A program made the translations under genes and the position numbers. Shown here in pieces: positions 4,329 through 35,516 of a stretch of DNA of 64,000 bases (the stretch's first letter is position 1; each line of letters opens with the position of its first letter). Source of the stretch: Leptothermofonsia sichuanensis E412 (GTDB lineage Bacteria; Cyanobacteriota; Cyanobacteriia; Leptolyngbyales; Leptolyngbyaceae); assembly GCF_019891175.1 (NCBI RefSeq), contig NZ_CP072600.1:2294001-2358000 (forward strand). Direction: 5' to 3'. Under the pieces are notes generated by a model that saw only the letters and a list, made by a program, of their open reading frames with translations, was not told the DNA's origin and did not search any database.

Positions 4329-5332
4329 TGCCTATGAAAGCCATGATTTTAGAGGCTCCCGGTCAACCATTACGGGAAGCAGAGTTGCCCATTCCTGAAC
4401 CCGATACCGGGCAGGTTTTAATCCGCGTTCATACCTGCGGGGTGTGTCGCACGGATTTGCATATTGTGGATGGGGAATTGAGGCAACCGAAACTGCCTTT
4501 AGTGCCGGGGCATCAAATTGTCGGCACGGTTTCGGCCTTAGGGCCAGGGGTCAACCGATTTGCCGTGGGCGATCGCGTGGGTGTTCCCTGGTTAGGATAT
4601 ACCTGCAACCACTGCCGCTATTGCCGGACTCAGCGCGAAAACCTCTGTGACAATGCCACATTCACGGGTTATCAGATCGACGGCGGTTATGCTGAATACA
4701 CCGTTGCAGACGAGCACTTTTGTTTCCCCATCCCGGCGGGCTACCCGGATTTGCAAGCAGCCCCTCTCCTCTGTGCCGGGTTGATTGGCTACCGTGCTTT
4801 AATGATGACTGGGGATGCTGAACGATTGGGGCTTTACGGCTTTGGAGCCGCTGCTCACATCGTCATTCAGACCGCCCGCCACCAGGGACGCCAGGTTTTT
4901 GGGTTTACGCGACCAGGAGACACGGAGGGGCAACAGTTCGCGCGGAACCTGGGGGCTGTTTGGGCCGGTGGTTCCAATGAAACCCCTCCTGATTTACTGG
5001 ATGCAGCAATTATCTTCGCGCCAGTAGGGGCACTGGTACCGGCGGCATTGAGGGCGATCGCGAAAGGTGGAACGGTTGTCTGTGCGGGAATTCACATGAG
5101 CGATATCCCGGCTTTTCCCTACGAGATCCTTTGGGGTGAGCGTGTGCTACGCTCCGTTGCCAACCTTACCCGACGCGATGGTGAAGAATTTCTCGCCCTG
5201 GCTCCCCAAATCCCTGTTTACACGCAAGTTGAACCATTTCCTCTAACCGCCGCAAACGATGCCCTGGCCGCCCTCCGCCACGGCAAAATACAGGGAGCAG
5301 CAGTCCTGAAACTTGATCCGCAATGCGCGTAA
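4328..5332 (+). CDS. zinc-dependent alcohol dehydrogenase family protein
   Basis: Medium-chain dehydrogenase/reductase of 334 residues. Catalytic-zinc ligands are visible as Cys40 (GVCRTD) and His62 (PGHQIVG). The structural-zinc lobe has four cysteines in YTCNHCRYC...C (93, 96, 99, 107). A Rossmann segment GLYGFGAAAH follows. It resembles the cyanobacterial AdhA-type NADP-dependent alcohol/aldehyde dehydrogenases. The start ATG at 4328 overlaps the uraH stop (TAATG); a second ATG two codons later would give the more common MKAM start. Its place as third gene of the urate operon is unusual. A role in handling an aldehyde or ureide product is inference only. Confidence 0.85.
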   Translation: MPMKAMILEAPGQPLREAELPIPEPDTGQVLIRVHTCGVCRTDLHIVDGELRQPKLPLVPGHQIVGTVSALGPGVNRFAVGDRVGVPWLGYTCNHCRYCRTQRENLCDNATFTGYQIDGGYAEYTVADEHFCFPIPAGYPDLQAAPLLCAGLIGYRALMMTGDAERLGLYGFGAAAHIVIQTARHQGRQVFGFTRPGDTEGQQFARNLGAVWAGGSNETPPDLLDAAIIFAPVGALVPAALRAIAKGGTVVCAGIHMSDIPAFPYEILWGERVLRSVANLTRRDGEEFLALAPQIPVYTQVEPFPLTAANDALAALRHGKIQGAAVLKLDPQCA

Positions 5333-25667: not shown

Positions 25668-26216
25668 ATGGCATCCACCCGTGAATAGTCCACGAGCGCG
25701 ATCGCCCATCTTTCTGGTAAAGGGCGTTGCTGATTTTGGGTATGTTGCTGGTTTTGGGTATGAATTGAGCATTGGATGAATTGAAGACTTTCAATTCATC
25801 CGACTATTCAGCATTACCCTGGTAAAGTGGGAGGTAAAGTGGGATTTCTTCGATTTAATCGGTATAGTCCCGTCAGGCTTTAACAGAAATTTATCAACCA
25901 ACCCTGGGAACATTAAGATTAGACATTTTGACTTAAATTGAATTTTATAGCGGTAGCCTCCTTCTCTGTCCCCCGTCCCCTGTCCCCTCCCCCCTGCCAT
26001 CAGACTATACCTGAAAGATAGAAGATGCTCTACCTTCTATTAAGATAAGTAAAGATTGTGAATGGCCTGCGGTAGCCTGCCTCAGCCCTGGCTGAAGTGC
26101 AACTGAGGCTCTCCGGATTACCCGCTCCACCGCCTTAAGCCTCACTGACAACCGGACCCTGACATCCCACAGGAACGCCAAAGGCGAACACCCCTCACCC
26201 CTCACCCCTCACTCCC
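25668..26216. other. repeat-rich intergenic region
   Basis: About 550 bp with no credible gene. It holds a dispersed hairpin (25774-25801), a C/T-rich tract of the CCCCTGTCCCC kind (about 25961-25997) and a CACCCCTCACCCCTCAC stretch just before the next gene. The start ATG of the TPR gene follows that last stretch without a clear Shine-Dalgarno sequence. Confidence 0.6.
25751..25806. repeat. dispersed hairpin repeat, copy A
   Basis: GTTTTGGGTATGAATTGAGC is followed by a perfect 12-bp stem GGATGAATTGAA / TTCAATTCATCC (25774-25785 with 25790-25801, loop GACT). A partial duplicate of the left part precedes it. Copy B is at 27215-27272; the two flank the TPR gene in the same orientation. Confidence 0.75.
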
Positions 26217-28641: not shown

Positions 28642-28682
28642 TGGCAGGGGACAGGGAACAGGGGATAGGGGACAGGGGAAGA
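28642..28682. repeat. GGGGACAGGGAACAGG-type intergenic repeat
   Basis: Purine-rich tract made of GGGGACAGG, GGAACAGG and GGATAGG words. The same kind of sequence, on one or the other strand, appears at about 25961-25997, 33728-33775 and, inside a gene, at 34378-34428. Confidence 0.6.
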
Positions 28683-32738: not shown

Positions 32739-33659
32739 ATGGAATGTTCTTCCATGCGGCGAGACTCCATTTTCTACAGAATCTTCCAGCAACAGCCTAC
32801 CCTGCTGTTTGAGTTAGTTACGCCTCCACCTGCCAATAGTGGCAGCTATCGGTTTGACTCCGTCGCAGTTAAGGAATCCAGATTTGAAATTGATGGAGTA
32901 TTCCTGCCCCCAGAAACTGACGGTACAGGAACTATTTACTTCTGCGAAGTCCAGTTCCAAAGAGATGAGCGGCTTTACGAACGGCTATTTAGTGAGTCGC
33001 TCCTCTACTTCTACCGCAACCGCGACTACTATGGTGATTGGCAAGCCGTAGTAATTTATTCATCCCGCAATATTGAACAAACGGCCCTTCATCCCCATCG
33101 ATCATTGCTCAATGGGGAGCAAGTATACCGGATATATCTGGATGAATTGGGTCCGATTCGCCAGTTGCCGCTGGGAATTGCTCTGATGGTATTGACCACC
33201 CTACAGGATAACCAGGCTCCAGAAGAAGCTCGCTACTTACTGACAAGATTGCGTCAGGAAAATCTGGATCCCGAATCAGGTCAAGCCATAATAGAACTGA
33301 TAACAACCATCATGGTATACAAATTCACCTTTTTAAGCCGGGTGGAGGTGGAATCAATGCTAGGAATCTCACTCCAGGAGACGAGAGTTTATCAAGAGGC
33401 AAAGGAAGAAGGACGTCAGGAAGGGCGTCAGGAAGGACGTCAGGAAGGACGTCAGGAAGGACGTCAGGAAGGACGTCAGGAAGAAGCAACAGCATTGATT
33501 ACACGGCAGTTGACCCGGCGATTTGGGCAAGAATTCTCTGAAGAAATGCAATCTCGGATCTCTGAATTACCGCTACCCCTACTGGAACAGTTGGGCGAAG
33601 CCTTGCTGGACTTTACGAGTCTGACTGATTTGCAGACCTGGTTAGGCACACACCTCTGA
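32739..33659 (+). CDS. DUF2887/Rpn-type PD-(D/E)XK nuclease-like protein
   Basis: A 306-residue protein of a family abundant in filamentous cyanobacteria and linked to the Rpn recombination-promoting nucleases. The predicted nuclease site is Asp52 (EIDGVF) followed by Glu70-Val-Gln72 (FCEVQFQ), a D...ExQ pattern. The C-terminal part carries six tandem EGRQ repeats (224-247), giving a charged helix before the conserved ALITRQLTRRFG segment that ends most members. It follows pyrE after 3 bp, an odd pairing that may simply reflect insertion behind a housekeeping gene. Activity is inferred only from the motif. Confidence 0.82.
   Translation: MECSSMRRDSIFYRIFQQQPTLLFELVTPPPANSGSYRFDSVAVKESRFEIDGVFLPPETDGTGTIYFCEVQFQRDERLYERLFSESLLYFYRNRDYYGDWQAVVIYSSRNIEQTALHPHRSLLNGEQVYRIYLDELGPIRQLPLGIALMVLTTLQDNQAPEEARYLLTRLRQENLDPESGQAIIELITTIMVYKFTFLSRVEVESMLGISLQETRVYQEAKEEGRQEGRQEGRQEGRQEGRQEGRQEEATALITRQLTRRFGQEFSEEMQSRISELPLPLLEQLGEALLDFTSLTDLQTWLGTHL
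33408..33479 (+). repeat. 12-bp tandem repeat, six copies
   Basis: GAAGGACGTCAG repeated six times, one unit with an A to G change, coding for (EGRQ)6. The near-perfect DNA identity suggests recent slippage or unequal recombination, and copy number is likely to vary between strains. Confidence 0.92.
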
Positions 33660-33722: not shown

Positions 33723-35330
33723 TCATCCTCCCTTCCCTGTCCCCATCTCCTGTTCCCCATCTCCTGTCCGATTGCTATACCAGGCCTGCAATGCCAACCG
33801 ATGAACTTTTAGCCAGGGGATATTGTATTGGCGAGCAATTTGAGCGCAGTCTTCATATTCGGGCTGTACATTAACGGGGGTGGACTTACTCCCATGTTCC
33901 ATCCAGGCAATTTTTACTCGAATAGTGCCATACGCCGTTTTAACTGGCTGAACTTCGCGTTGCAGAACCTGACGTTGCTGGTTAGAGTGACGGATTCCCA
34001 GGGTGGTTGTTTCCCGAAAAATGATGGTTTCACAGGCGATCGCAGCTTCTGGGGGGCAAATGACTGTCAGCAGGATACCCATTCGTGACTTTTTCATCCC
34101 GATTGCTTGAGTAAACACCTCTACTGCTCCAGCCGCGAATAAAACGTCATACAGATATCCAATCACTTGAGGATTGAGGTCGTCGATTTGAGTTTCAAGG
34201 ACAGTGACTGTTTCTGGTGGGGGGAGTGGGGTATGGGTAATAGGGAGGGGAGCGCGAGATAGCGAATGGGGGGGGTGGGGGGAGGTGGAGTATGGAACTG
34301 GGACGTGAAGGTGGCCCGGCTGAGTGCTCTCTGAGGGACTCAGCCAAACGGAATCGGAACCTGGGGCAATCCCTATCTTCTGTTCCCTGTCCCCTGGTTC
34401 TTGCACAGTTCCCTGTTTTCTTTCCCCAATCCACAGGCGCAGGATATTGGGAATTGGAAGATCAACGGTGCCTGCGCCCAAGCCAACCCGGAGCAGGGTC
34501 ATGGAAGGAGGGGGACCAAATTGAACTGCCAGCGTTGTAGCGATCGCTGCCCCAGTGGGGGTGACCAGTTCTCGCTCAATTCCATTGCTGTAAAGAGGAA
34601 TCTGACGCAGTTCAAACAACTTGAGCACAGCCGGAGCCGGAACTGGTAAACGACCATGGGCTGCCCGGATTGTGCCCCCACCCACAGGCAGGGCTGAACA
34701 GTAAATACGTTCCACACCCAACCAGTCCAGCCCCAGACAGGTACCCACAATATCCACGATCGCATCCGTTGCTCCAACCTCATGAAAATGAACCTGCTCC
34801 GGGAGAATGCCGTGGACTGCCCCCTCTGCCTCAGCCAGTTGGCGAAACACAGCTAAACTCCAGACCTCAGCCCTTGAGGGCAAGCCTGCTGCCAGGATCA
34901 TCTGCTCAATTTCTGGCAGGTGTCGGGTAGGGGTAAGGTGGGTATGGCTGCCGGGAGATGCTGGCTCATGGCTGTGACTATGCCCATGCTGCTGGAGGTG
35001 GGAATGGACATGGGCATAGCTCTCAGGTTCCCAGGGAACTCCTGCGCTAGAGTGGGCATGATGGCTTAGATGATAGGCTGTTGTAGCAGCGTCTTTCGCT
35101 TCAGAACCAGCCCCTGAGGTATTGGGGAGCGCCAGATCGACATGAATTTTGGTTGCCCGCTGACCATTGCGGTGAACCTGCTCCGCCCGCAGTTGATATT
35201 CCTTTGAAATACCAAGACGCCCTAAAGCCTCAGCCAAATAATCGAACGGAACTCCTGCGTCCACCAGTGCCCCCAGGCACATATCACCAGCAATTCCAGT
35301 TGGACAATCCAGGTAGGCAATTTTAGTCAT
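33723..35330 (-). CDS. larC: nickel-pincer cofactor biosynthesis protein LarC
   Basis: CTP-dependent nickel insertase of the lactate-racemase cofactor pathway. The N-terminus [17 protein letters not shown] is the family signature, followed by a His-rich region ([15 protein letters not shown]) expected to hold Ni2+. The C-terminus has [10 protein letters not shown] and KKSRMG as in the CTP-binding domain. Start ATG 35330 fits the signature; an earlier in-frame ATG at 35372 adds 14 unlike residues. About 80 residues between the two domains, and the tail after QAWYSN, are encoded by C/T-rich repeat tracts normally seen between genes. larB and larE are not in the window. Function may extend to other nickel enzymes. 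Confidence 0.87.
34378..34428. repeat. intergenic-type repeat inside larC
   Basis: CTTCTGTTCCCTGTCCCCTGGTTC...CAGTTCCCTGTTTTC, matching the CCCTGTCCCC words found between genes. On the coding strand it stays in frame and gives a Gln/Glu/Asp-rich stretch near [10 protein letters not shown]. Confidence 0.75.
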
Positions 35331-35516
35331 GGGCGTGCAGGAAGGGATGAAGGGATAAAAGATAGAAATCAAGGGAGAATATTTTTTATTTTCGCTTCCT
35401 TTGAACCATCCTTCATCCTACCCCTCAGAACAGAACCGTACACCCTTCATCCCTCATCCTTCATCCTTCATCCCTCATTCCTCATCCTTGACCCTCCATC
35501 CCTTTCCCCTAAACCC
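35331..35516. other. divergent larC / YrdC-family promoter region
   Basis: Holds an AT-rich stretch (AATATTTTTTATTTTCG, about 35376-35392) suited to promoters. A CATCCTTCATCC-rich tandem tract (about 35407-35500) runs up to the next start codon. Confidence 0.5.

Follow-up and report, generated by a model that had tools for sequence, protein, structure and literature searches.

Translated heptanucleotide repeats as a probable source of interdomain linker sequence in cyanobacterial LarC

The larC gene of Leptothermofonsia sichuanensis E412 contains words that are otherwise seen between genes, which raises the question of how such DNA comes to be read as part of a conserved enzyme. The gene was examined within a window of 64,000 nucleotides from the host genome (G000; 6.43 Mb, single contig), where it occupies 33723–35330 on the minus strand and encodes 535 amino acids, annotated as nickel-pincer cofactor nickel insertase from the ORF and profile matches. 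It was the single LarC match in the host genome in a profile search. Pfam PF01969 (Ni_insertion) matched residues 5–509 with 470.8 bits (cut-off 22.1), and the LarC1/LarC2 equivalogs TIGR00299/NF052512 gave 212.7 bits (cut-off 90) and 141.9 bits (cut-off 50), with extents of residues 136–301 for LarC1 and 375–496 for LarC2. The protein is LarC by profile, with a putative nickel insertion activity. The host genome also encodes LarE (TIGR00268, 320.9 bits, above cut-off) and gave no match to LarA (PF09861) in the profile search, in line with the reported synthesis of the nickel-pincer cofactor without LarA by many cyanobacteria (PMC11796402). The same work reports that Synechocystis LarC is active in E. 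coli. Among the matches listed, the top named locus came from Leptolyngbyaceae cyanobacterium HOT.MB2.61; its LarC segment and that of a genome of the same genus (G001) are identical.

All parts of the protein are read from the minus strand. The LarC1 core comprises residues 136–302 (34425–34925) and the LarC2 core residues 373–518 (33777–34214), and between them lies a linker of residues 304–372 (34215–34421). The two other segments discussed here are a His-rich loop at residues 67–132 (34935–35132) and a C-terminal tail of residues 520–535, which with its stop codon covers 33723–33773. When LarC was aligned with a 414-residue LarC chain from the PDB, the aligned blocks omitted window residues 66–131 (the His-rich loop) and 311–371 (the linker), the PDB chain having 3 residues at the first place and 1 at the second. 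An AlphaFold model built from 24 sequences had a mean pLDDT of 75.3, with values below 50 at residues 72–132, 310–367, 526–530 and 532–535; the linker and most of the tail are accordingly predicted to be disordered. The initial annotation had described an insert of about 80 residues. The insert exists, but its size was overstated, as residues 304–372 exceed the shortest cyanobacterial linkers (9–11 residues) and the single residue of the PDB chain by about 60.

The pattern CCCTGTYCCC occurs six times in the window, at 25978, 28647, 28654, 28668, 33735 and 34385, compared to a mean of 0.58 expected, and six copies were reached in none of 100 shuffles. Two copies are within larC, at 34385 in the LarC1/LarC2 linker and at 33735 in the C-terminal tail, which confirms at the DNA level that intergenic-type words are present in the middle and at the 3' end of the gene, as first proposed; the places originally named (25961, 28642, 33728 and 34378–34428) all hold CCCTGTYCCC or near variants. 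Outside larC these are CTGTCCCC/CCCTGTCCCC words at 25961–25995 on the plus strand and an array of CAGGGGA/CAGGGAA heptads between convergent ORFs at 28643–28681. Within the linker the repeat words proper occupy 34378–34410 on the plus strand, with CTGTTCCCTGTCCCCTGG at 34380–34397, and this is the part whose 11-mers are common to other intergenic DNA. The tail is read out of CCCTGTCCCC/CCTGTTCCCC words, and the 5' flank of larC (35331–35516) is a purine-rich then pyrimidine-rich stretch with CATCCTT/CATCCCT heptads.

Only a small part of the window linker consists of recognisable shared words, amounting to about 25 nt, with the remainder degenerate. The fraction of shared 11-mers over the whole linker (0.093) equals the CDS background mean (0.092) and so gives no support for a linker made entirely of dispersed repeats; shared 11-mers stand out at about 34380–34400 only within the linker, and in the tail (0.368). 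The lag-7 periodicity of the linker is weak (14/21, p 0.007 vs mononucleotide shuffles), placing the window protein outside the 30 heptad-bearing LarC defined below at 16/21. As the shared words cover about 25 nt, an origin of the other approximately 180 nt from short tandemly repeated repetitive (STRR) DNA is suggested by composition and by the relatives.

In the host genome as a whole CCCTGTYCCC was found 379 times, compared to 139 for the pattern read backwards. The initial annotation suggested that the repeats spread without regard to genes and proposed counting the words in coding and non-coding sequence. In a 444-kb sample of the host genome, 73% of which was called coding, that count gave 26 of 32 copies in non-coding and 6 in coding DNA (binomial p 3e-10), so that the words avoid genes and the claim of indifference is not supported. 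Three of the six coding copies are at residues 13–18 of an apparently over-extended start, one is in an ORF of 100 codons and two are in larC, which leaves larC as the credible exception. Tandem arrays behaved similarly. In samples of the host genome (444 kb) and of a second genome, G006 (380 kb), lags of 5 to 12 were compared and arrays at lag 7 (13/14) were the most numerous; they were distributed as 6 in called genes, 4 at edges and 19 intergenic in the first, and 28, 10 and 93 in the second. Gene calls for word and array placement, and for the purine clusters and spacers described below, were made with a simple codon-usage script whose starts are often over-extended, so that the in-gene counts are inflated; five of the six in-gene arrays of the host sample are at residues 5–28, probably ahead of the true start, and the sixth is inside PyrB.

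LarC was present in 58 of 58 genomes by profile search. Loci were taken from 57 of them, a fragment in G030 being left out, and from the best 80 of a larger set of named loci; removal of 6 loci without an ORF of at least 380 residues and of 13 duplicates reduced the 138 loci to 119 distinct LarC, the window protein included. A linker was found at the LarC1/LarC2 joint in all 119, ranging from 9 to 201 residues with a median of 36. A lag-7 score of at least 18/21 was obtained for 19 of 113 scorable linkers, for none of the 119 LarC1 or 119 LarC2 cores and for 1 of 112 His loops. At a score of at least 16/21 the numbers were 30 linkers, no LarC1 core and 3 LarC2 cores among the 119 proteins, and 2 of the 112 His loops. 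The His loops repeat instead at codon multiples, with period 6 in 8 of 112 and period 12 in 14 of 112. On a quick tree of the 119 sequences (412 columns, 45 of 116 inner branches weakly supported) the heptad state required at least 16 changes, or 13 at the stricter cut. These comparisons show that the joint has repeatedly been filled with heptanucleotide repeats in filamentous cyanobacteria, which are predicted to be read in frame.

The linkers also turn over between close relatives. Three Microcoleus proteins (L171, L178 and L182) with a core identity of 0.95–0.96 have linkers of 91, 23 and 110 residues, in which heptads and CCCCCCCC-AAGGGGGG palindromes are joined in differing assemblies with some units in common, and the equally long linkers of L159 and L173 (core identity 0.94) are related at their ends only. 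The linkers of L147 and L157 differ by 14 residues, the equivalent of six heptads. Similar linkers were retained in close, heptad-free sisters of Nostoc, Okeania and Moorena. The alignment of larC with relatives that had been proposed as a check thus found linkers differing in length and sequence except between close sisters. Outside close sisters no conservation of the linker at the residue level was found among the 119 cyanobacterial LarC, and none of them had the same insert encoded by different codons in a distant protein; non-cyanobacterial LarC were compared through PDB chains only.

These data bear on whether the linker is itself a selected feature of the protein, such as a hinge, a partner-binding segment or a metal-delivery segment, with the repetitive DNA incidental. 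That a linker of at least 9 residues occupies the joint in 119 of 119 proteins would be expected of such a feature, as would the similar linkers kept in the Nostoc, Okeania and Moorena sisters, and the His-rich linker of several cyanobacteria (for example L021 and L053) could bind nickel. Heptad-bearing sisters with core identities of 0.94–0.96 nevertheless differ widely in linker length or sequence, and a period of 7 nt is no codon multiple, unlike the periods of the His loop. A selected linker is considered quite unlikely, and a conserved protein insert is not supported.

The larC linker core words and the tail are instead probably translated STRR DNA, with a period of 7, that has been retained by filtering. 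STRR composites would keep arising at many sites through copying or joining of the genome's own words together with growth by slippage, and selection would purge them from nearly all coding positions. Persistence within a gene would depend on three filters, namely a total length that is in frame, a stop-free orientation and a structural position at which a floppy segment can be accommodated. The LarC1-LarC2 joint, a loop in PyrB and the ends of genes would then act as traps, filled and refilled with the words of each species. A period of 7 is helpful here, since a heptad array is translated into the same cyclic heptapeptide whichever frame is used (GNREQGT for GGGAACA), and a word that lacks a stop in one frame lacks it in the other two; TTCAAAA is stop-free and its complement contains a stop. 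The linker peptide, assuming that it is translated in the cell, most likely has no function beyond that of a flexible tether and would be neutral. Of the traits of STRR DNA, words that are dispersed and mainly between genes were found here; tandem heptads score at least 16/21 in 30 of 119 LarC linkers and 14/21 in the window's own.

All 11 heptad-bearing larC genes of the 58-genome set are single frames that are open through the insert, a result partly built in as complete ORFs of at least 380 residues were required; since linkers were cut from ORFs, in-frame length differences likewise hold by construction. Of the 6 loci that were dropped, two have LarC1 and LarC2 in different frames without heptads and the remaining ones are truncated where their contigs stop. 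A phase variation based on changes in heptad copy number found no support, as no out-of-frame heptad linker was seen, with the reservation of the ORF filter, and the two frame-split larC genes lack heptads. In G018 and G014 a contig terminates within the larC linker or at it. No empty site at the nucleotide level was found at larC among relatives compared at species-level divergence, so that insertion is not established over growth in place.

Growth in place, by polymerase slippage from a chance seed and with no copying between loci, is a possible but rather doubtful account of the arrays. It would agree with the difference of six heptads between L147 and L157, and with a published proposal, cited in PMC4679880 and PMC4692102, that a repeat of 7 nt matches the length of DNA in contact with the polymerase. 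Against it, the word pool is genome-specific, and a single locus has several different words that are seen again, similarly ordered, elsewhere in that genome. At G006 loci these are purine words, then AAAATTC or AAAACTC, then CACCCCA. The array AATTCAAAATTCAAAATTCAA of the G006 LarC linker gave 138 overlapping matches in G006, 99 in G010, 26 in G015 and 4 in G037, one of which is in its larC linker; 46 of the 58 genomes, including that of the window, had no match. The backwards-read control gave 41 matches in G006 and 5 in G015, and might represent a separate family of words. Nine of 58 genomes contain three consecutive copies of CTTCTGA, which are in the larC linker in G023 and in pyrB in G004, with no matches for the control. 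The heptad words belong to each genome's own pool. Slippage alone also leaves unexplained the purine-then-pyrimidine order described below.

The joint of LarC is not the only place where arrays recur, as the PyrB loop is a second such site. A lag-7 score of at least 12/14 was found for this loop in 6 of 23 genomes (G000, G001, G004, G010, G014 and G037). The loop is long without such a score in G006 (38 residues) and G013 (44 residues), and has 20–29 residues in six and 11–17 in nine of the remaining genomes. In G006 the 28 in-gene arrays are distributed over 16 ORFs, six with arrays at or near an end and ten with internal arrays. In four of these ten proteins (PdxA, a cytochrome c assembly protein, a DNA ligase adenylation domain and a methyltransferase) the array is within or between pieces of one Pfam match, the second piece being unlisted for some; one array is between CHAT and CHASE2, and the rest are outside or without a Pfam match. 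The suggestion that repeats are tolerated at domain boundaries therefore fits the LarC joint and is too narrow as a general rule, being ruled out by these four proteins, and the PyrB loop is a further departure from it.

The arrays of PdxA and LigA in G006, proteins that are usually essential, lie inside a single domain or separate its pieces, which might suggest that the insert is removed before the protein works, by RNA splicing or by ribosome bypass. Under excision an open frame would be unneeded, and the 11 of 11 heptad-bearing larC genes that are open through the insert make this scarcely credible, with the reservation that the ORF filter favours such cases. The DNA ligase gene of G006 (L101, about 4600–5250) changes frame upstream of its array, which may be real or an assembly error.

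The heptad composites have a defined order, newly described here, in which a purine-rich part is followed by a pyrimidine-rich part on either strand. The order was examined first in G006 sample 1 and the host sample, and afterwards in G006 sample 2, G015 and G023. Adjacent polar arrays in G006 were purine-then-pyrimidine in 34 cases and the reverse in 1 (20:1 in sample 1, 14:0 in sample 2). Elsewhere the ratio was 2:0 in G015, which also has one opposite pair of a pyrimidine array followed by a neutral one, and 1:0 in the host sample, with no pairs in G023. The left-right purine difference exceeded 0.1 in 40 of 47 multi-array clusters of G006 sample 1 and was below -0.1 in none, whereas array-free intergenic windows of G006 were symmetric (16% vs 18% of 705). 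For spacers of 80–700 nt, differences above 0.15 and below -0.15 numbered 27:3 of 150 in the host sample and 27:3 of 130 in G006, and the purine-first side led in all four gene orientations.

The same order is present in coding DNA. Among LarC linkers of at least 20 residues the purine difference exceeded 0.1 in 27 of 30 with heptads (mean 0.27) and in 26 of 74 others, compared to 23% of 357 segments of the LarC cores; the coding strand of the window linker is purine-rich then pyrimidine-rich with a difference of 0.36. For the PyrB loop of the six array genomes, in the order listed above, the values were 0.21, 0.28, 0.54, 0.52, 0.25 and 0.04. As the larC and pyrB inserts have no adjoining stop or start, the order looks intrinsic to the composites and not a matter of placement relative to gene ends.

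The words of the two arms in G006 were within one mismatch of each other in 1 of 20 and 2 of 14 pairs (3 of 34), compared to 2.65 and 1.43 by shuffling, which speaks against a fold-back (hairpin) origin of the composites. The mean z of RNA folding was -0.36 for 29 heptad linkers, -0.20 for 65 other linkers and 0.00 for 29 core controls. With heptad linkers folding close to their shuffles, a general role as mRNA hairpins is not supported. The 47 G006 clusters had a mean z of -0.79, with a few true hairpins reaching -8.8.

A MITE-like or palindromic mobile element inserting in frame, comparable to the Rickettsia palindromic elements, is quite unlikely on this evidence. The composites are symmetric at the purine/pyrimidine level, arrays are in frame in many genes, and a hairpin insert at the larC junction of G056 (L043) and CCCCCCCC-AAGGGGGG palindromes at that of L159, L171 and L182 resemble what an element would leave. 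The 45 G006 clusters listed have no common ends, however, as judged by eye, their arm words differ (3 of 34 within one mismatch vs about 4 by shuffling), and the heptad linkers fold like shuffled sequence. The insert of L043 (minus strand, about 1009–1278) is hairpin-like, and at this locus LarC1 and LarC2 are in different frames.

Tentatively, and with little likelihood, the composites, including those translated in LarC and PyrB, could be scars of broken chromosomes in which both 3' ends were extended with purine-rich heptads, by telomere-like addition or by repeated slippage along a short template, before being joined. This is suggested by the order on both strands, by the unmatched arm words, and by a strand rich in G and poor in C (47% G and 5% C on the G006 purine strand) that points inward, in the 5' to 3' direction, from each side.

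Heptanucleotide STRR of cyanobacteria were reportedly described by Mazel in 1990. In filamentous cyanobacteria the known STRR are likewise of period 7, dispersed and mainly intergenic (7-bp STRR are described in PMC2670836), and they enter a functional RNA gene, as indicated by the title of Vioque 1997 on STRR within RNase P RNA genes (cited in PMC4748335). The repeats described here differ in lying inside conserved enzymes at recurrent sites, in being read in frame and in their purine-then-pyrimidine order. The G-quadruplex repeats GGGGA(C/T)T of Nostoc and Xanthomonas are under-represented on the coding strand of ORFs, with the G-rich sequence on the coding strand after stops and on the non-coding strand ahead of ORFs, and 68% are intergenic in Nostoc, so that some are intragenic (PMC4692102). 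Their placement agrees with the order found here. Nostoc has few paired (inverted) repeats of this type, which fits the unmatched arms and is no test of the order; as far as the available text of that paper goes, arrays are treated singly and no recurrent coding site or composite order is named. The TAACTGA repeats of Beggiatoaceae and cyanobacteria are also heptads, mostly intergenic and sometimes in ORFs, where they are argued to be tolerated at the protein periphery or between modules (PMC4679880). They differ in consisting of one word found mostly in hypothetical proteins or protein ends, and the text available names no enzyme family in which a site recurs. Rickettsia palindromic elements (PMC10969869) similarly place repeated DNA in frame in unrelated metabolic genes, but are about 150 bp long and each encodes a conserved peptide, and no conserved element was seen among the composites described here; the palindromic arms of such elements were found in G006 at shuffle level only (3 of 34). 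Cyanobacterial heptads, their depletion in genes, their occasional presence in ORFs and the in-frame repeats of Rickettsia are therefore already known from these sources. For the recurrent filling of LarC and PyrB with STRR, and for the composite order, there was no report in the literature searched, most subscription journals lying outside it.

If the preferred reading of translated, filtered STRR DNA is right, non-coding repeats have become protein again and again at one harmless enzyme joint, which would be a natural record of the birth of linkers. The independent filling of one site many times over, for which short forms also exist, offers a test bed for the long-debated origin of STRR, and any mechanism has to account for the purine-then-pyrimidine order. 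Where a cyanobacterial protein has a long linker of low complexity, translated STRR may be the reason, and annotation should take this into account.

In Lactobacillus plantarum larC1 and larC2 are said to form a split gene whose halves are joined by a programmed frameshift. The frame is divided there at the same joint, whereas larC of the window is one frame with a repeat linker and that of G011 consists of two overlapping ORFs. In the latter (L030, minus strand, about 2280–2497) larC1 and larC2 are in different frames with almost no linker. Other material was also observed at the joint: the 201-residue linker of L061 (G042) is a longer repeated peptide of SGKSGQLAIDKGSQQPET-like units, the linkers of Moorena L138, L151, L135 and L139 differ in how many SSAN-type units they contain, these being repeats at the codon level and not heptads, and a His-rich segment is present in, among others, L021, L023, L024, L041, L053, L054 and L057. 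In the ORF neighbouring larC in the window (32739–33659), a 12-nt tandem repeat, GAAGGACGTCAG, is present in 6.3 copies at 33408–33483 and encodes EGRQ repeats.
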